This document shows, piece after piece, positions 1 to 16,724 of a stretch of DNA of 35,868 nt. The position numbers were made by a program, and so were the translations under genes. Within the stretch, counting starts at the first letter, position 1; every line of letters starts with the position of its first letter. The stretch spans positions 1 through 35,868 of the forward strand of contig JAHLWH010000032.1 of the NCBI GenBank assembly GCA_019058015.1. Direction: 5' to 3'. The notes under the pieces are model-generated. The model was not told where the DNA came from. It worked only from the letters and a program-made list of their open reading frames with translations, and made no database searches. The stretch comes from Promethearchaeota archaeon (GTDB lineage: Archaea; Asgardarchaeota; Lokiarchaeia; Sigyniarchaeales; SOKP01).

Positions 1-338
1 GCTCGAAAGACTGAAATTTTTCTTTAACTTTAAATTCTTAGTTGCTCTTGTCAAAAAATTAATAAAAATTGAAATTTTATTGGAAAATATCTTGATTTTT
101 AAATGATTTTTTATAAAAAGCTTATTTTGAAAATTAAAGGAAGGTTTACACCATAAAAATTAGAGAAATACATAAAGAATTAAATACTTTTAAATACAAA
201 TATATTCTAAAATAATATAGGGTAGCAACAAAATTAGCTTCATAAAGAAGATTGAAACCCGATTATATTAAACACTAGCCTTGCCGGATGATCAGTAGCA
301 ACAAAATTAGCTTCATAAAGAAGATTGAAACTGGTAGA

Positions 339-1015
339 AATGAACAACACAATTAATGAAGTTCTTGAAAAACTGCATCAAAGAAGAGGACTTCCTCGTC
401 TTGAAATAGAAGGATGTAATTATCCGATAAATAAAGATTTTATTGAAAGGTATAAAAAGTCTAAGGCATCAATGCCTGAGCATCATGAAGGATTTTCTGT
501 CGTACATTTTGATGCGGAGAGAGGCTCGAATTGGAAAGAGTGGCTTAAACATGATGGATTCGGCGGACAGGTAGGTAGTGTAAATATACCTTCCGAATAT
601 TTAGAATATTTAGATGCACCTAAAGGAGATAGATGTGTCTATGCTATGAAAGATAAATTCGATAGACGAGATTATTATTATACTGAGATTTATCGTGAAT
701 ATATCTTGTTCAAAAAATCAGACTTGGTAAGGGTAATCAAAATTGCTTTAAAAACTAATAATAAGGTAGCAGAAGAGATTATCATAGGAAAAGAAATCGT
801 AGATAATGTGATTTGGGATGATTCAATTCCAAAGGGACCTGGCCTTAAGGTAATGGATGCTACTATTTGTTTGCGGATAGACCTGAACGAAGAACCAAGT
901 TATAAAATCTCTTTGGTGAAACCGTGATGGAATTTCATAGGTTACAGCCCCATTTCTCGTTTCGCACCCATGTCCCTGTGGGATTCGTTAAATAATGAAC
1001 AACACAATTAATGAA
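339..1015. mobile_element. 655-bp insertion inside CRISPR spacer 2 bounded by 22-bp direct repeats (possible target-site duplication or att-type core)
   Basis: AATGAACAACACAATTAATGAA is perfect at 339-360 and 994-1015. Without one copy plus the insert, 332-338 + 22 bp + 1016-1023 gives a 37-nt spacer. No obvious terminal inverted repeats. Confidence 0.55.
340..927 (+). CDS. Hypothetical protein, cargo of the insert in CRISPR spacer 2
   Basis: Open frame from ATG at 340 (the ORF-track TTG start at 325 lies inside the CRISPR repeat). The start codon lies within the 22-bp duplicated sequence. No family recognised. Confidence 0.6.
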   Translation: MNNTINEVLEKLHQRRGLPRLEIEGCNYPINKDFIERYKKSKASMPEHHEGFSVVHFDAERGSNWKEWLKHDGFGGQVGSVNIPSEYLEYLDAPKGDRCVYAMKDKFDRRDYYYTEIYREYILFKKSDLVRVIKIALKTNNKVAEEIIIGKEIVDNVIWDDSIPKGPGLKVMDATICLRIDLNEEPSYKISLVKP

Positions 1016-1060
1016 TCTTAATAGTAGCAACAAAATTAGCTTCATAAAGAAGATTGAAAC

Positions 1061-1554
1061 ACCAATCAGAAATTTTATTGAAAACTTCACTGATCGATTT
1101 TTTGAGATCGCCCTCATCTACAGGTCCCGTGGAAAGAATTTCAAAAATATTGTTAATTACGACAATTTCCACGTTTGCATTTCCTCGCGATCCCATGAAC
1201 GTCTCGTCAGCAAACAACACGCCTCTTGGAAGGGTTTTTAATTCTTGTTCAATTACTTGTGAATTTTATTGAAATACCTGCGAAACAAAGCTCTTTTTAA
1301 AGCGACTTAACTTATCTTGAGGAACTCCCCATCTTAATGATGTGCCTGTAAGCGGATATTTTAAAACAAACAGCTCGTAAAGGATCTTTTTAATTTTTTG
1401 CTGATACAACAGCAAATTCCACGCGTCAACTTCTTTTCCAAAGCGCTTGTTGCATTTAGAGCACTTGACCCTGTGAATCCTTTTATTTGTAGGTACATTA
1501 TACCCGTCATATACGAGAAAACTTATGTAAGCACACGGATTTTGGGACTCTGAT
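1061..1554 (-). pseudogene. DDE-type transposase remnant (zinc ribbon + 'FADETFMGS')
   Basis: Minus-strand reading gives ...RIHRVKCSKCNKRFGKEVDAWNLLLYQQ...SFVSQVFQ*NSQVIEQELKTLPRGVLFADETFMGSRGNANVEIVVINN...NKISDW. In-frame TAA at 1266-1268. Truncated at CRISPR repeat 3. Confidence 0.65.
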
Positions 1555-1785
1555 TTAGAATTCTTTTCTTGTCGAATTTAAAGCGTTTTGAGAACAAAAA
1601 AGAAGAAGGATATCACATTTCTCGATATAGTCATTCATATATTTAATAAAATCTTCTCGAGCATCTTCTTCACAGAATAACACATCATCAATTTCAGGAC
1701 GATTAGTCAAATCTTCAGCGATTTTTGAGATTTGAAATTTCTCTGAATCTTTCATAGAATAACATATGAACATATAAGCTCCCAT
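1555..1785 (-). pseudogene. Truncated TIR-domain protein (N-terminal ~76 aa)
   Basis: MGAYMFICYSMKDSEKFQISKIAEDL...FCEEDAREDFIKYMNDYIEKCDILLLFCSQNALNS resembles the start of a TIR fold (FICYS box; CDILLLFCSQN). Stops where the transposase remnant begins. Confidence 0.6.
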
Positions 1786-1926
1786 TAATTGAATTCCCTT
1801 GTAAAAAATTTAGCTTAAATTTAAATATTAATTTTTTAAATCATAAGTACATATTTGAAAGTTTTCTATAATTATTAGATTTCATTAAGAATGCAATCAA
1901 TTTATAATTTAAATTAAGTTATTAAA

Positions 1927-3378
1927 ATGACAATTGTTGATATTGGAGAGAATTTACACGATAAAATAGCTAAATTCTTGGAAATTCATAATAACCCAGT
2001 TAAAAGGCTTTTAAAAAAGGTTTTAGATTACTTTAGGGAATGGTGTGGAACTTTAGATAATGCAGAAAAAATTAAAGATTTACTCTGGGGTATAAATCGA
2101 ACTATTGAACCATTTAGTCATAAAATTGAGGGAAAATTCCCCGATTTTACTGCTGGAAAAGATCTCAACCAAAAAGGATATGGCATAGATGGTCTTTTGG
2201 AAATTAAGCATAAAGCTAGGAGAATAAAAAAAGAAGATCTTATAGAATATATTGCTCGAAACGACTATTTAAAATATATTGAATATTGTATGAAGAAGTT
2301 AAATAATTCGGATAAAGTAACAGAGACATTAAGATATTTAAAAAGACTAAACAAATTGATCGAAGTAGACGTATTAAAGAAGGAAATTGTAAATAAAAAT
2401 AGTAAAGAAATCAATCGTGAATGTATTAAATTATGTAAACTTTATTCTGATGAAATATTCGACAAGATTTTAACATTTTTAGTAGATATTTCACTTGAAT
2501 GGCTAAATAAATTGTTATCAATATCAAGAATGCCAGTTACAGATTCAGAAAATCCTGAAAAATTTCAAATAGACTTACATCTTCATTCACATTATTCTGA
2601 TTGTGGAGCCCAATCTGTAGGTGAAGTATTATGTAAAGCCAAGGAAATAGGGTTAAAGACAATTTCTATTACTGATCATAATAATTTTGATGGGGTGTGT
2701 AAGGCAATTAAGATAGGTTTGATATTTAATATTGATGTGATCCCGGGAATAGAGGTGGCTACAGGAGTAAATAAAAATAATAAGTGGATTGAAGATAGAA
2801 GGGATATATTGGTATATTTTCCAAACTTAGATGAATTCCAAAAATGGGTTTTAAATGGATTTGACTCATATACTAATAAATTACTCGAAAAAGCATCAGA
2901 TAGAATTCATAATAAAAAATTATGGGGAAATGTTCCAGTCAATACAGTACTAGAATGGGCTATTGATCATGGAGGTGTGAGTATTTTAGCTCATCCAGGT
3001 TATTATAATTATGAAACCTATGAAAATATAATTAGATTATTAAATAAGGGTCTTAAAGGAATTGAACTATTCAATTTAAAATACACTAATTATAGCCATT
3101 ATGCTAAAAACTCCTTAAAAGAGGTTATTGAACTTTTTTTTAACATGATAAAAAAGTTTACAAAATATAGTGCTTCGGAAAGAAAACCAATTTTTACAAT
3201 TGGAAGTGATTCACACTCATTAGATACTGTAGGAATTATCATTTTAAGCTCTGAACTTGTTTTTAAGATAATTTCTTTTTATGATTATTCTAAACCAGCT
3301 ATTAACATTATAACAAGCCAATATAGATGGTTTGAGCAGTTAATTTTTAAATTCTTAAAAAATTCGATCTTAAGTTAA
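1927..3378 (+). CDS. PHP-domain metal-dependent phosphoesterase with ~210-aa uncharacterised N-terminal region
   Basis: DLHLHSHYSDCG, ISITDHNNFDG, IPGIEV, ILAHPGYY and GSDSHSLD motifs. Confidence 0.85.
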   Translation: MTIVDIGENLHDKIAKFLEIHNNPVKRLLKKVLDYFREWCGTLDNAEKIKDLLWGINRTIEPFSHKIEGKFPDFTAGKDLNQKGYGIDGLLEIKHKARRIKKEDLIEYIARNDYLKYIEYCMKKLNNSDKVTETLRYLKRLNKLIEVDVLKKEIVNKNSKEINRECIKLCKLYSDEIFDKILTFLVDISLEWLNKLLSISRMPVTDSENPEKFQIDLHLHSHYSDCGAQSVGEVLCKAKEIGLKTISITDHNNFDGVCKAIKIGLIFNIDVIPGIEVATGVNKNNKWIEDRRDILVYFPNLDEFQKWVLNGFDSYTNKLLEKASDRIHNKKLWGNVPVNTVLEWAIDHGGVSILAHPGYYNYETYENIIRLLNKGLKGIELFNLKYTNYSHYAKNSLKEVIELFFNMIKKFTKYSASERKPIFTIGSDSHSLDTVGIIILSSELVFKIISFYDYSKPAINIITSQYRWFEQLIFKFLKNSILS

Positions 3379-3515
3379 GCAATTTTATAATATCTAAATC
3401 CACAGTTATTATATCCACCCTATAAGAATAAATAGGGCATACTATAATAGATTCTAAACTTATTGATGAAATTATTAAAAAATCAGCTTTTTATGAGGAA
3501 AAGAAGTTTAAATAC

Positions 3516-4160
3516 ATAAAAAGGAAAAAAATGCGCATTTAAAATTTTTAATTTCAGAAATATTATTTCCACCTAAGTTTAATTCTCTCAAAGTTGTAAG
3601 ATGTATTAATTCTGACACATAAGAGATATTATTTTCATATAAATTTAATTCTTCTAAATTCTTTAATTTCTCAACCCCCTTTTATCTCTGTAATATAGTT
3701 TTCTTCTGAATTTAAAACTTCTAAATTAATAACTGAAACTAATCCTTTTATTTGTGAAATTTTATTGATACTAAGATCTAATTCCCATAATTTTGTTAAA
3801 GAGTCAAGGACTTTTATTTCAGAAAAATTATTTTCTGATAAATTAAGAACCTTTAAATTGTTAAATGTAGTAAGTCCTTTAATCTCAGTAATGTAATTTC
3901 CTTTTAAATTTAGTTCTTCCAGATTTATCAATGCTTCTAAGCCTATTATTTCTGAGATTTGGTTATTACTGAGATCTAATAATACATTTTTATTATTTAT
4001 TTACCAATTTTAGAATTTCTTCTCCAAAAACTTCTTTGAAAATTTTACTCATTTCTGGAGTTAATGAATATGAACGAAATATATTAGCAAATTGAATTAA
4101 AATATTTCCCAATTCTATTTCCACTCTTTTAATATATGTTGAAATTTTTTCTTTAACCAT
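3516..4160 (-). pseudogene. SDS22-like leucine-rich-repeat protein, two apparent frameshifts
   Basis: LRR units (LEELNLKGNYITEIKGL, LKVLNLSENNFSEIKVL, LEELNLYENNISYV, LRELNLGGNNISEIK) continue in different frames across breaks near 3680 (run of Gs) and near 3995. Start ATG overlaps the end of the upstream gene. Confidence 0.7.
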
Positions 4161-5034
4161 TCTGATGTTTTTTTTTAAGGAAAATCATAACTTTTAACTG
4201 ATCTTCAATGATAAAATCTCCTATTATATAACGTTCTTCAAAGTCTACAGAGATAGTTCTACCAGCTTTGATTTCTTCTCCCCAAAGATCAACTGCTTTA
4301 AGAAAACTACTTATGAGATCAACACTTATAACTTTTTGAATGAATTCAATACTAAAGACAACAGTACCACTTGCAACATTTTGAATTAGTATTAATTGTA
4401 TATTCTCTATATCTGGATCTTTAATAAATGGCATAGTAATAAAATTATAAATGTCGTTTCCAGTATTATTTACTTCTTTATATAAATAATAAGGCTTTTT
4501 AACATATTTTTCATCAAAAATCTTCTTCCTTCGAATATCATTTATTAAATCTAAAACTGCACCTTGTACATTTTCCATTATACCTAATGGTACTCCAAAG
4601 GCAATTGTCATACGATATTCTAATGCGGCTATTTCACCTCCATTAATACCAATCATTTTTATACCATTAGGATTTGAGTAAGAATTCAAAATATCAAACC
4701 AATACTGGAAAATTATATCAAGATTTAAATCAAAATCAATCTTTGGTAATTTATATACAATTTTTCCTGCAATCTGGCTGAAATTTATTCTATTAGGAGT
4801 ATAAATATAGGCATTATATTTTGAAGGCATTGTATAAAAATTCAAAATCAGTTCATTAATTTCATCAGCGTAGCAACCAGAAATTAGCTCTCCTTTATGA
4901 TCTTTAAAAGCTTGTCTAAAAATCTTAAAATATTCGTTTAATTGAGTTTTATCGAAATTTTTAATTCCTCCTGCTAAAATAACAATTGTATTATTTAAAA
5001 TTGGCTGTTCTAATTTAAACCCATAATTATTCAA
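4153..5034 (-). CDS. SLOG-superfamily-like (putative nucleotide-sensing Rossmann) protein
   Basis: NTIVILAGGIKNFDKTQLNEYFKIFRQAFKDHKGELISGCYADEINELI...IAALEYRMTIAFGVPLGIMENVQGAVLDLI resembles the SLOG pattern (LAGG/SGG loop, conserved A.E.R, GVPLGI). TTG start; possible in-frame extension upstream. Confidence 0.5.
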   Translation of the reverse strand: MNNYGFKLEQPILNNTIVILAGGIKNFDKTQLNEYFKIFRQAFKDHKGELISGCYADEINELILNFYTMPSKYNAYIYTPNRINFSQIAGKIVYKLPKIDFDLNLDIIFQYWFDILNSYSNPNGIKMIGINGGEIAALEYRMTIAFGVPLGIMENVQGAVLDLINDIRRKKIFDEKYVKKPYYLYKEVNNTGNDIYNFITMPFIKDPDIENIQLILIQNVASGTVVFSIEFIQKVISVDLISSFLKAVDLWGEEIKAGRTISVDFEERYIIGDFIIEDQLKVMIFLKKKHQNG

Positions 5035-7451: not shown

Positions 7452-10400
7452 TTGATTGAGCACAATAACATGGCAAAGGTAAAAGATAATTTGGCCTATC
7501 CGTATGTAACGGTATTCAAAAAGAAGCCGTTTAGATCATTTACTTTTGCCATAGATGACGATATAGGAAGTTTTTTTATACCTGAATATGATAAGATTGT
7601 GAAAATTTTTCGGTTTTTTGAAAAAAATTTATTAAATTTTAAAAATCTGAATTTAGAGAATATATATTGGTTTCTTTTATTGGGGAAATATTTAAGGGAA
7701 GATATATCTATAAATCTCAAAAAGATCATTAATTTCATAACAGGATGTGAGATTTTTGAAGAAAATTCCCTAGGATTTAAGTTCTCTCCTGAATCTAAAC
7801 AGAGAAAACCGGATAATTGGTCAACTTTTTTTGCTTTAGCCAGTTTAAATTTATTAGGAGAATTAGATGTTTATTTATCTACACATCCAAGAGAAAATAT
7901 AAAAGAAAAGATTATTAATTTTATTTTTAAGACCAGAGATAAAGGGCGTTTTGTTCATTGTTTAAACAAAAATTGTACAATTTGCCAAAAAACAACGCCT
8001 ATTAGAACAAGTTTTTTTGTAATAGAAGCATTAATTCTTCTAGATTTTGATATCAAATTACAACAAAATGTGTTTTTAAAATATTTTAATGATTTAAAAA
8101 AGAAATATTCTATAGTATTTCAATTACTGATTCTTAAATATTTTGATTTAATTTCTGATATCGAGACTAAACACTTAAAATATTTACACCAATTTCAACA
8201 AAATGATGGTGGTTTTAGTTTTAAGGAAAATATTGGAAAAATTAATGAAACATTTTGGATTATTTATGTTTTGGAAAACTATTCCTGGTTGCTTGATTAC
8301 AATCGTGGAAGGATTTATTCTTTTCTCTCAACGAAAATCAAAGGCTTAAATCATGATTATAGTTCATTTAATACCTTGAAATTGATGGATATTTCGAAAA
8401 TTATTTTAATGTGCTCATTTATTTGGTCTAAATTTATTGAAGAAGTTGAGAGAACTGTTTTTAGACATTTTGATATAAATACTTCTTTAGACTTAAATAT
8501 TTTGAAAAAAGAGTTAGGAATAAATGAGGGAATACCAGAAATTCTTAGATATATTAATCAGAAATATTACTTTAATTTAGAGATTTTAGATAATGAAATT
8601 GAATTTAATAATTATTTAAGAAATTTAACCCGAGAAAATGCATATTTAGCTAAATCAGTATATGCGTCGATAAAAAATTCTAGCGTCATCTATTTAAATA
8701 AACTTCTGAATGACTATAAATACAATTACCCAAATAAGCCAAAAAAAATTAGGGATTTGATCCTCCTAATAGAAGATTTAATTTCGCACAACTTTTTCCT
8801 AGGTCGAATTCTTCGGAAAAACATGATTTTTTTTAGTAAATATTATTTATATAAAGACAAATTTATTTATGAAGTAATTAGAATTGATTCTGATATAAAT
8901 AGCGAAGAAATAATTAATGAAAAATTTAAATTGGAGGAAATCAAAACAGATATTTATAATATTATAATTAAATTAAAAGATACACCAAAAAAGATTAAAG
9001 AAGAGATTAAAAGCTTAATACTTGTAAATGAATTCGATTTAGCAAAAGAAAGGTTAAAATACAATGTTAAAAATGCTTTAATGGAAGCCGATTTTTTAAA
9101 TGAAAATATTGAAAATTCCTTTTCTACAGATTTTAAATACATAAATCCAAATTATCAGTTATCCAATGAGATAGTGGAATGGAACAAGAATTATTCGGAA
9201 ATTCGAAGCAAATATTTTAATTTACAAAATTATTTTAATGAAATTTTCAAGGAAAAAGAAAATTTAAAAAATTTCAAATTAATTTTGAATAAATTGGAAG
9301 ACATAATTGACAAAAATGAACAAAAAATTTATTCTTTAATTGATCACTTTAAAAATTTGTTTAGAGAATCCCTAGAGAAATCATATTCTAATGAAATTGT
9401 CCAACAATTATTAAAAGTATGCGAACATCTTAATTTAGAAATCACGAAATTAGATACGCAAATCTATGAAATATCACATAAAATTACTTCTAAAGAAAAA
9501 TCCATTAAAAAAGCTCAAAAGAAGGTTATCTCAAAATGGATATTAATTAAAGAAGATGCAGATACATTTATTGATTATTTCCTAGAAGGATTTAAGATTT
9601 ATGAAAATGATAAAAATGAAATGAAGGAAATAGAACAAAGTACTTCTTTGATGATTAATGAACTCAAAAACACAATTGATTTAATCTTAAAGGAAAAAGA
9701 ATATCAATTAGCACTGGAAATTATTGAAGAGAGAACTGAGAAGCATTTAAATGAAAAATTAGAATTAATCAAAAATTCTCAATCTCAGTTAAAGGAACAT
9801 ATGAAGAGTAAGAGAAAACTTACTCTTCTTCTAAAGAAAATTCAAGAAGATTGGAATAAATTAGAGCAAAAAATAATTGAGAAACTTGACAATTATCGAA
9901 ATTCTATTGAAGATAAAGTTATTCAAGAACGCGAACTTGAGAAATTAAAAGAATTTGACAATTTTATAAAGAGCAATATTTCAATTTTAAAAGAACAATT
10001 AAGAAAGAAAGAAAATGAATGTGCGAAAGATTTAAATTATCAAAAACTTAAAATCGCCAATTTAAACTCTCGAATTGCTGAACTTTCTAAAAAGTATTCA
10101 GATCTCAACGAAAAAGTTAAAGATAAAGTAAAAGAACTTGCTAAAATTGTAGTGGATTTTCAAGAGAAATCAAAGTTATGTATGTTATCATGGAATAAAT
10201 TCATAGATCTATTTAAAAATAATTTGAATGATTTAAAAAATAAATATACAAATGAGATTATAAAACAAGAGATACTATCAACTAGCTCACAATCTAAAAC
10301 AAATCTCATAAAACTAGATGATTTAAAGAAAAAATTAAATCTAAAATGTAATGTGTTGATCGAACGGATCAATGAGATGATAGAAATTACAAAATTAGAT

Positions 10401-11882
10401 GGAGAATTGGATGAAAATGACAAAGAGCTTCTTGTTCACACTGATGATTATTATAAGAATAAACAATTGCGAAATTTTATTGAAAAACAAATAGAGAAAT
10501 TAGGAAATGATTTCGGAAAATTAGTATCTCTATATGAATCTGCAATAAAAAATAAATCTCTTAAACTTAATATTTTAGAAATTCAAAATAGAATAGAAGA
10601 TTTTAATACCCAGCAATTAAATTTAGAAAGAAGTTACCAAAATGAAATTTTAAAAATTGGTATAAATATAAATAGAGATGATTTCTTAGCGAATAGAAAT
10701 TTTTTCAATACTGAACTTAATAGATATAGGGATATTATTGATGAAATTAACAAAAATACAATACTTTTTAATCAACTTGTAAATTTCATCGGTGGAGAAT
10801 TCAACCCTTTAAGAATCCAATTACGGGAATTAAATAAATCCTTTCAAGATGAATCTGAAAAAACAAATGATTACGATAAACTATTAAATAATTTTAGCGG
10901 TAAAATCTTAGAATTATCTGAAACTACAAATATTTCTTTCAATGAGATTGAGCAAGGAATTAGTACCACGATGATTAAGAATGAAAGTTTAAAAATATCA
11001 AATTCTGAAATTCGAGAAGTACTCGTTTTTATGAAAAACCAATTTAATAAAGAATTTGAAGAATTTAAGGAAAATGTATCAAAAAAATTTGATTTGATTA
11101 AAAACGACGCTTTAAAAAAGAATTTGATGCAATTTATAAATAGAAATCAGATTTTACTTAATCAAATGCTTGGATCCTTAGAACGAAAAGTTGAAGATAA
11201 ACTAGAAATTAAAGATTTTAAATCTACAAGTATTATGGTTCAAAGAAGAGTAAAAAAAATACGAGAAAAATTAAAATATATTGAAAATGAAACCTCTAGA
11301 CTTAAAAAAGAATTTAAAAAATCATCTCCTACATTCAATACAAAAAATAAATTTCTTTTTGACGATTTTAAACATTTTCTGCATGAGTATAATGAGATAA
11401 TTAATGAGAAAATTAAAAAATTAGAGCAATTAATACTTAAAAGTTATATTACAATTGTTATTAAGGCGGTTAAAGACGAATATATAACAATATCTTTTTT
11501 GGCACACGAACTTAAAATTAAAAAAGATAAAATCCAAACATATATTATCACTTTGATTGGTGATAATGATTTACCAGGAAAATATGACCCTGAAATTCAG
11601 TTATATTATGAGAATCTTGAAATTATTAATAATTTAAATCCTGCTAAGTTAAAAGTTATTAAAACCACCAACTTCAGATTTTATGAGATTCTTAATAGAT
11701 TAAGATTCATTGCCAGCCAATATGGATCAGTTATATCTTTAATAGCTGCTTTATTTACAATTTCTATAGCCCTTAATAATTTAACAGGAGGAAACCCTTT
11801 AATAGTGTTTTTTCCGTTAATAATTACAGCTGTTATTATTTTATATCTCTTATTAAGAAAGCAAAAAGAAGAGAAAATATGA
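7452..11882 (+). CDS. Giant (1476 aa) coiled-coil protein: N-terminal helical-toroid (prenyltransferase/terpene-cyclase-like) repeats, long coiled coil, wHTH-like segment, C-terminal transmembrane anchor
   Basis: N-term contains NWSTFFALASLNLLGEL, PIRTSFFVIEALILLDF and DGGFSFKENIGKINETFWIIYVLENY. Centre is K/E/L-rich heptads. C-term TISFLAHELKIKKDKIQTYIITLIGDNDLPGKYDPE then hydrophobic YGSVISLIAALFTISIAL and LIVFFPLIITAVIILYLLL. Confidence 0.75.
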   Translation: MIEHNNMAKVKDNLAYPYVTVFKKKPFRSFTFAIDDDIGSFFIPEYDKIVKIFRFFEKNLLNFKNLNLENIYWFLLLGKYLREDISINLKKIINFITGCEIFEENSLGFKFSPESKQRKPDNWSTFFALASLNLLGELDVYLSTHPRENIKEKIINFIFKTRDKGRFVHCLNKNCTICQKTTPIRTSFFVIEALILLDFDIKLQQNVFLKYFNDLKKKYSIVFQLLILKYFDLISDIETKHLKYLHQFQQNDGGFSFKENIGKINETFWIIYVLENYSWLLDYNRGRIYSFLSTKIKGLNHDYSSFNTLKLMDISKIILMCSFIWSKFIEEVERTVFRHFDINTSLDLNILKKELGINEGIPEILRYINQKYYFNLEILDNEIEFNNYLRNLTRENAYLAKSVYASIKNSSVIYLNKLLNDYKYNYPNKPKKIRDLILLIEDLISHNFFLGRILRKNMIFFSKYYLYKDKFIYEVIRIDSDINSEEIINEKFKLEEIKTDIYNIIIKLKDTPKKIKEEIKSLILVNEFDLAKERLKYNVKNALMEADFLNENIENSFSTDFKYINPNYQLSNEIVEWNKNYSEIRSKYFNLQNYFNEIFKEKENLKNFKLILNKLEDIIDKNEQKIYSLIDHFKNLFRESLEKSYSNEIVQQLLKVCEHLNLEITKLDTQIYEISHKITSKEKSIKKAQKKVISKWILIKEDADTFIDYFLEGFKIYENDKNEMKEIEQSTSLMINELKNTIDLILKEKEYQLALEIIEERTEKHLNEKLELIKNSQSQLKEHMKSKRKLTLLLKKIQEDWNKLEQKIIEKLDNYRNSIEDKVIQERELEKLKEFDNFIKSNISILKEQLRKKENECAKDLNYQKLKIANLNSRIAELSKKYSDLNEKVKDKVKELAKIVVDFQEKSKLCMLSWNKFIDLFKNNLNDLKNKYTNEIIKQEILSTSSQSKTNLIKLDDLKKKLNLKCNVLIERINEMIEITKLDGELDENDKELLVHTDDYYKNKQLRNFIEKQIEKLGNDFGKLVSLYESAIKNKSLKLNILEIQNRIEDFNTQQLNLERSYQNEILKIGININRDDFLANRNFFNTELNRYRDIIDEINKNTILFNQLVNFIGGEFNPLRIQLRELNKSFQDESEKTNDYDKLLNNFSGKILELSETTNISFNEIEQGISTTMIKNESLKISNSEIREVLVFMKNQFNKEFEEFKENVSKKFDLIKNDALKKNLMQFINRNQILLNQMLGSLERKVEDKLEIKDFKSTSIMVQRRVKKIREKLKYIENETSRLKKEFKKSSPTFNTKNKFLFDDFKHFLHEYNEIINEKIKKLEQLILKSYITIVIKAVKDEYITISFLAHELKIKKDKIQTYIITLIGDNDLPGKYDPEIQLYYENLEIINNLNPAKLKVIKTTNFRFYEILNRLRFIASQYGSVISLIAALFTISIALNNLTGGNPLIVFFPLIITAVIILYLLLRKQKEEKI

Positions 11883-11972
11883 ATGATTAAGTAATATTTT
11901 TAAACAAGTTATGAGGATTTTTTATTAATAAATAATAATAATATTTAACAAAAATTTTGGAAAGAAGCACGA

Positions 11973-14525: not shown

Positions 14526-16724
14526 ATGAACTCAATTATAGATTCAAGAAAACTCTCAACATTGTTTGGAATTAAATCTGCTTTTTTTCAAAATTCAATT
14601 AAATACTTAAATCAATCAAAAAGAAAATCAAGAAAAGCTTATGATTTTTATTTTAACAAATGGAAGAAATCTTTTGGAAAATTATATAAATCACAAAATC
14701 TTACACACCAACTATTCCTAAACCATACATATCTATATTATTTAGTAAAGACCATTATTTTACATTTCATAGAGAGACAATTACAAAATATTCAAGAAAA
14801 AAATAAAACAAAAGACGTATTTAATAAAAAATTAAAGCATTTAAAAATAAATGAGATATTCAATTGGCTTTCCAATGCTGATTCATTTACTAACTTAATC
14901 GTAGATCAAATAAGGAATTATAAAATTTCAAATGAAGATTTATTTTTTCATATTTATCAAGAAATTATTGATCCATCTGCTCGACATGAAAGAGGAGAGT
15001 ATTACACTCCAAAAAACCTAGCTAGATTGATGATTGAAGATGCTTATTCATTAGGCATGAAAGTTCTTGATTGTTCATGTGGATCAGGTATGTTTTTAAT
15101 GGAATTAATAAAAATAATATTAAATTCTACTAAAAGTAATAAAGAGAAAATAAAAGATTTAAATAATATTTACGGATTAGACATAAACCCAATAGCAATT
15201 TTAGTAACTACTGCAAATTTCCTTTTAAATATTCAAGATATATATAAAAAATTAGAGGCCTTTTTACCTGCCATTAACGTTTATCGATTTGATCCATTAA
15301 ATCCAACAGATGATTTTCTATTTCCTTATCAAGATTTTAAAAATAAATTTGATTTAATAATTGGAAACCCTCCTTGGTTAACATATAAAGATGTAAATGA
15401 TAAAAAATATCAAATTATTCTTAGAAATTTAGCAGATAGTTTAGGAATAAAACCTCAGAGTCAATATATTACTCATATCGAGCTAGCTTCATTATTTTTT
15501 TACCAGACTCCCAAATTATTTCTAAAAAATAATGGGACAATTTTTTTAATCTTAACTAAAAGCGTCTTAACCGGTGGTCACTGCTTTAAATTTCGAGCTT
15601 TCAAGTTTTTCTATGATTTAGAAATCTGGGATTTTGAACAATATACTTTTTTTAATATGGATTTCATAATACTCAAATCAAAATTTGATTATTCCCAAAA
15701 TAAGATTAATGGTATATCTAAAACTTTAATTGAAAGTAAATATCCAATTCCTACAAAAATATTTGACCAAAATTTGAATTTAATTAAAGAAACCAATTAT
15801 TTCTCAGTTGAGATAAGCAAACAAGGTGCAAAATCTATTATTCCAAGTGAGCAATACGATAATTTAATTAAGATATCAACAAGTTGTTATAAAAAAAGGT
15901 TCTTTCAAGGAGCTACATTAGTCCCTCGAGCTTTAACTTATTTTACCATAGCTGGTGTTCAAGAAACTGATAATATTTTAATGATCTCTCCTGACATAAA
16001 CTCCATAAAACAAGCCAAACCACCTTGGAATAAAATTTTTTTTAAAGAAGAATTAATTGAAAATCATTTTCGTTTTAAAACATTTTTAAATAAAGATCTC
16101 GTTCCATTTGGCATAAAAAAAAGAAGAAATATCTTTCTTCCCGTTAACGAGAAATTAAATTTTTCTAAGAAATACCTTGAAAAACTTCCTTACGGAGAAA
16201 AGTTTTATAAAAAAATTAATAATTCCTACAAGAAATTCAAGAAAGGAACAAGCAATATTAACACCCTTTTTGATAATCTAAACTATTGGAATAAATTAAG
16301 CAAACAAAATTTAAATAAAAAATATTTAGTAGTTTACAATGCAAGCGGTTCCAAAATAAAATCTGCAGTAATTAATAACGAGAAAGAAAAAATCATTATT
16401 TGTTCTGAAAATTATTATTTCTCAACTAATAACAAGGAAGAAGCCTATTATTTAACAAGTATTTTAAATGCACCTATCCTCAGTGAAAACATCAAGATTG
16501 TAAAAAGCAGTCGGCATATTCACAAACGACCATTTGATTTTCCTATTCCTAAATTTGATTCCAACAATTCCAATCATCAAAAACTATCGAAGATTGGAAT
16601 GAAAGCAGAAAAAAAAGTAAATGTTATTGTCCAAAAAGATGAAAAAATTAGTGTAATAAAAGTGAAAGAAAAGATTAGCAATATTCTAGATGAAATAAAT
16701 AAAATTGTTCAAAAAATAATCTAA
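14526..16724 (+). CDS. N6-adenine DNA methyltransferase (Eco57I/type IIG-like)
   Basis: GEYYTPKNLARLMI, VLDCSCGSGMFLMELI, FDLIIGNPPWLTYKDV motifs; ~370-aa C-terminal region likely for target recognition. Confidence 0.88.
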   Translation: MNSIIDSRKLSTLFGIKSAFFQNSIKYLNQSKRKSRKAYDFYFNKWKKSFGKLYKSQNLTHQLFLNHTYLYYLVKTIILHFIERQLQNIQEKNKTKDVFNKKLKHLKINEIFNWLSNADSFTNLIVDQIRNYKISNEDLFFHIYQEIIDPSARHERGEYYTPKNLARLMIEDAYSLGMKVLDCSCGSGMFLMELIKIILNSTKSNKEKIKDLNNIYGLDINPIAILVTTANFLLNIQDIYKKLEAFLPAINVYRFDPLNPTDDFLFPYQDFKNKFDLIIGNPPWLTYKDVNDKKYQIILRNLADSLGIKPQSQYITHIELASLFFYQTPKLFLKNNGTIFLILTKSVLTGGHCFKFRAFKFFYDLEIWDFEQYTFFNMDFIILKSKFDYSQNKINGISKTLIESKYPIPTKIFDQNLNLIKETNYFSVEISKQGAKSIIPSEQYDNLIKISTSCYKKRFFQGATLVPRALTYFTIAGVQETDNILMISPDINSIKQAKPPWNKIFFKEELIENHFRFKTFLNKDLVPFGIKKRRNIFLPVNEKLNFSKKYLEKLPYGEKFYKKINNSYKKFKKGTSNINTLFDNLNYWNKLSKQNLNKKYLVVYNASGSKIKSAVINNEKEKIIICSENYYFSTNNKEEAYYLTSILNAPILSENIKIVKSSRHIHKRPFDFPIPKFDSNNSNHQKLSKIGMKAEKKVNVIVQKDEKISVIKVKEKISNILDEINKIVQKII

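Follow-up and report, generated by a model that had tools for sequence, protein, structure and literature searches.

Insertion of IS elements into cas genes and into CRISPR loci has been described (PMC10359306), and when Sulfolobus solfataricus that carried a matching protospacer was put under selection, ISC1359 was found inserted in spacer 28 (PMC3025118). The locus described here is like the latter case in that foreign DNA lies within a single spacer. ISC1359, however, is a known transposable element at a known target site, whereas the present insert has neither transposase nor inverted repeats and is bordered by a 22-bp direct repeat. Direct target duplications of unusual length, 16-28 bp, are a feature of the IS1202 group (PMC10132070), but its members have inverted repeats and a large transposase (PMC10132070), and our insert has neither. 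With casposons (PMC10359463) the locus shares a putative target duplication and a tie to CRISPR-type integration; the casposon of M. mazei, with its 14-bp duplication, possesses inverted repeats and a cas1-solo gene (PMC10359463), none of which was found here. Like integron cassettes, archaeal ones included (PMC9668308), the insert is a small single-ORF unit that has a GTTRRRY motif and whose ORF begins close to one edge, but it differs from them by the absence of an attC structure, of an R'' box and of an integron integrase scoring above cut-off, and by a 22-bp repeat in place of a short core. Finally, elements moved by tyrosine recombinases come with an integrase and a dyad-symmetric core, and often lie in a tRNA gene: here the insert has no integrase, the 22-mer is not dyad-symmetric, and the target is a spacer. 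Insertions into spacers are already known; this one bears a gene, lacks inverted repeats, has a 22-bp repeat and is present in two species.

The DNA analysed (the window) makes up the entire contig C20, 35,868 bp, of the Lokiarchaeal (Asgard) MAG G000, an assembly of 283 contigs that totals 3.84 Mb and is 94% complete. The array and its split spacer are laid out as follows.

1-221, + strand: leader of the array, AT-rich (18.6% GC); the contig begins here
222-258, + strand: CRISPR repeat 1, 37 bp (sequence match)
259-294, + strand: spacer 1, 36 nt, missing from the G002 array (spacer comparison)
295-331, + strand: CRISPR repeat 2, 37 bp
332-338, + strand: first 7 nt of the split spacer
339-360, + strand: 22-bp direct repeat, left copy; holds the ATG of the ORF at 340-342
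340-927, + strand: ORF of 195 aa, coding-like, in the direction of the array
361-993, + strand: inserted DNA, 633 bp (655 bp with one repeat copy)
928-993, + strand: tail after the stop codon, 45.5% G+C, ending in GTTAAAT
994-1015, + strand: 22-bp direct repeat, right copy
1016-1023, + strand: last 8 nt of the split spacer
1024-1060, + strand: CRISPR repeat 3, last and leader-distal, 37 bp

As the original prediction had it, repeats 2 and 3 are intact and 692 bp apart. The three 37-bp repeats (222-258, 295-331 and 1024-1060) are identical in sequence. Positions 1-331 show 81% identity to the leader and repeats of a sister array on another contig of the same genome, C158. On the + strand the repeats terminate in ATTGAAAC and are preceded by the leader, which makes the interrupted spacer the last of the array and presumably the oldest.

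Right after the last repeat, on the - strand (1061-1600), is a broken, frameshifted frame that resembles a transposase remnant: it has zinc-finger-like CSKCNKRFG and ADETFMGS stretches and gave no significant Pfam match. A short ORF on the same strand (1555-1785) matches TIR_2 (E 6e-7) and is apparently a truncated TIR protein beside the array. Further away, at 14526-16724 on the + strand, a gene encodes a protein that resembles type IIG restriction-methyltransferases (PADLOC, E 1e-33).

Two further contigs of G000, C258 and C158, are bordered by the same or a near-identical repeat. On C258 the same repeat is followed by genes for Cas10, which has an HD domain, Csx10/Cas5 III-D, Csm2 and Csm3 proteins, and the contig also encodes CARF proteins. 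On C158, CARF and Csx16 genes sit between two arrays. Since the matching repeat adjoins III-D effector genes on C258, the array of the window is assigned, on its repeat, to a type III-D system. The III-D effector operon of C258 looks complete, with CARF proteins on both sides (locus L053). Between the two C158 arrays, whose repeats are nearly the same, the genes at 969-4559 (locus L011) are of CARF-PIN-like, CARF and Csx16 types, the CARF and PIN parts being two adjacent ORFs that match one fused model.

The central feature of the locus is the 22-mer AATGAACAACACAATTAATGAA. Its copies at 339-360 and 994-1015, which lie 7 nt past repeat 2 and 8 nt ahead of repeat 3, are exact, and no further copy exists in the whole window with up to 3 mismatches allowed (chance expectation 0). 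The interval of 692 bp was also shuffled 500 times at the mononucleotide level, and no exact repeat in these shuffles was longer than 15 nt, against the 22 observed. When 655 bp are cut out (the DNA between the two copies plus one of them), a spacer of 37 nt (7+22+8) is left, and the other spacers of the two genomes are 36-40 nt long; for a repeat placed at random, the chance of leaving a spacer of normal length is about 0.7%. The two exact copies of the 22-mer and the normal spacer left by the excision are as originally predicted, and the claim of a precise insertion within a normal spacer is supported. In the genomes G001 and G004, candidate matches to the 22-mer with 3 mismatches were discarded: they fall within an apparent gene which, by eye from its sequence, we take to be of the valyl-tRNA synthetase type.

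The same figures bear on the view that all 692 bp form a single spacer of abnormal length, put in place by Cas1-Cas2. It would account for the neat bounds and the two intact repeats, but it leaves unexplained a 22-bp repeat so placed that a 37-nt spacer remains, and Cas1 was not found in the G000 assembly (94% complete); we regard it as very improbable.

The insert is also present in G002, a second MAG from this genus (JAHLWE010000209.1, contig k141_45196), where it has identical junctions and sits in the same last spacer. An alignment of the two contigs extends over 11.7 kb, at 96.9% identity. Over the 692 bp the two genomes show only 2 differences (at 644 and 646), both amino-acid changing (A to V and M to L), which corresponds to a divergence of 0.3% for the insert versus 0.3-2% for the adjoining 9 kb. 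The leader-side spacers are wholly different. Because G002 has identical junctions, SNPs of its own and different leader-side spacers, the insertion is real and inherited: either it is older than the separation of these lineages, or it travelled together with the locus. In at least one lineage, the array was altered at its leader end after the insertion.

The original prediction had left room for an assembly artefact, 22 bp being near the small k-mer sizes of assemblers. The second MAG effectively does away with that option, since a chimera joined through the 22-mer would have to be reconciled with the same junctions in G002, with independent SNPs and with different upstream spacers. The name of the G002 contig (k141), which is in MEGAHIT style, indicates assembly by MEGAHIT at k=141. 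Such a chimera is scarcely credible.

Among the other genomes of the family that were compared, none carries the array repeat beyond G000 and G002, and in the other genomes of the genus compared there is no orthologous flank. No empty site with the uninterrupted 37-nt spacer was found, because only G000 and G002 carry the locus among the genomes compared. Of what the relatives were expected to reveal, the insert was thus recovered in G002 at the same site, but neither an uninterrupted spacer nor a copy elsewhere. In another part of the window (9100-11900), comparison with the G002 locus L034 on contig C224 shows divergence rising from about 1-2% to 6-15% inside a long coiled-coil gene; this step suggests a recombination boundary, the conserved side being the CRISPR side.

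The insert was originally described as devoid of transposase, which is correct, but it is not featureless: a gene starting within the repeat had been overlooked. This single ORF (340-927, 195 codons) runs in the same direction as the array and has its ATG inside the left 22-mer. Its GC content at codon positions 1, 2 and 3 (0.48, 0.31 and 0.26) is that of a real coding gene. The codon score, -0.98, is lower than that of any of the 585-bp segments taken from ten host genes (lowest -0.967), and this suggests a foreign origin. The GC content of the insert is 0.36 versus a window-wide median of 0.28, and that of the ORF, at 0.345-0.36, comes close to the window's 95th percentile. The protein gave no significant match in Pfam, NCBIfam, PHROGs or PADLOC and no PDB chain, and searches of Asgard genomes, plasmids, phages and IMG/VR returned no homologue beyond G002. 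A single-sequence structure model was unusable (pLDDT 31). The N-terminus is, in our judgement, natural-looking.

When the entire host genome was searched with the insert at the DNA level, no second copy was found (a weak match at C18:27801 lies within an unrelated gene and was set aside), the insert protein is absent from 228 Asgard genomes besides G002, the tail DNA has no other copy in 58 relatives and the tail pattern no other source in 226 Asgard genomes. IMG/VR, searched by protein and by patterns, holds no source of the insert, and phages and plasmids gave only short matches at chance level. A structured RNA or intron was rejected, since positions 1-2000 gave no match to Rfam at E<=1, and the literature on unusually long spacers or on ORFs within arrays yielded nothing useful.

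The absence of transposase and of terminal inverted repeats, both already claimed from the sequence, was confirmed: the one ORF of the insert has no family match, and the best 20-mer match between the ends is 11/20, the mean of the shuffles being 11.0. The insert also holds no integrase or recombinase gene. These results matter for a cassette, captured site-specifically by a tyrosine recombinase or an integron-like system at a core borne by the spacer. The organization of the insert, with one ORF starting near one edge and some 65 nt past its stop codon, is suggestive of it. The 66-nt tail (45.5% G+C) ends in GTTAAAT, which fits the GTTRRRY motif of integron R' sites, and integrons are reported to be enriched in Asgard archaea (PMC9668308). 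However, no R'' box or other partner box of an attC site is present in the insert; no tail hairpin stands above those of shuffled sequences, the fold of the bottom strand being weaker than most shuffles; and the 22-mer, compared with its own reverse complement, matches at 2/22 positions and thus has no dyad symmetry. As to the enzyme, the only tyrosine recombinase of G000 is probably XerA-like and is conserved throughout the genus, and no integron integrase scored above cut-off in this 94% complete assembly (best TIGR02249 score 54 bits for a cut-off of 265). The integron-cassette option raised at the outset fails on the attC features and on the integrase, and site-specific capture of a cassette is, all in all, unlikely.

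What can be stated of the event is that DNA was inserted in a normal-length spacer, that this spacer bears a perfect 22-bp duplication with unrelated flanks, and that two species share the structure by descent or with the locus as a whole. The two copies match over exactly 22 bp, and beyond them the flanks are near-random (1/7 and 2/8 identities in register). A perfect direct repeat with random flanks is the pattern of a target-site duplication; a shared recombination core would give the same pattern. Our preferred reading, held tentatively, is that one ancestral insertion split the oldest spacer. The target spacer would have been cut with a 22-bp stagger, some 633 bp of foreign, gene-bearing DNA (361-993) joined at the cut, and the gaps filled in, so that 22 bp of spacer were duplicated. 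The agent could have been a transposase acting in trans, or a fragment could have been captured at a staggered break. Target duplication is consistent with the presence of the same structure in an independent MAG, with a divergence of the insert in line with that of its flanks, and with a codon usage and GC content atypical of the host. Against it stands the lack of inverted repeats, of a transposase and of any other copy in the host or its relatives. It also makes the start of the ORF a coincidence, because the start codon lies inside the duplicated target.

The start codon finds a ready explanation if a 655-bp circle, or a 655-bp tandem unit, integrated by one crossover via 22 bp shared with the spacer, which would have been acquired earlier from a relative of the element: gene and start codon would then be native to the circle, as the intact ORF, the ATG within the shared 22-mer and the natural-looking N-terminus would have it. 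When a gap of 2 nt is allowed, the right flank of the spacer also aligns with the circle at 6/8 positions; for both flanks combined this is weakly better than chance (p ~0.04). But a spacer derived from a protospacer should match its donor over all 37 nt, and the limit of identity at exactly 22 bp favours target duplication. A replicon of only 655 bp would be very small, and searches of IMG/VR, phages, plasmids and Asgard genomes turned up no donor. Integration of such a circle is the main alternative, of lower probability. Target duplication is favoured, short of an even chance, over the circle models, which taken together weigh nearly as much. A more specific proposal, which we consider quite improbable, is that Asgard archaea have an unrecognised small element of cassette type, in which a single gene makes up a 655-bp unit able to integrate via a 22-bp core, the spacer having captured this core from a related element. 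If it were true, an immune memory would have become an integration site; and should the 22-bp repeat be a recombination core, the insert would suggest an undescribed class of small mobile cassettes.

To conclude, the locus shows clearly that a CRISPR spacer of Asgard archaea houses a foreign gene, which has been inherited there although the array continued to change at its leader end. Transcription of the ORF may start from the leader or promoter of the array. Because the 7 nt and the first copy of the 22-mer are unchanged after repeat 2, 29 of the 37 spacer nt are retained there; the crRNA of the split spacer, if made, would begin with ATTGAAACTGGTAGAAATGAAC, and a 3'-trimmed type III crRNA keeping these 29 nt might still guide. 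Whether an interrupted type III spacer does so is the question that the locus raises.
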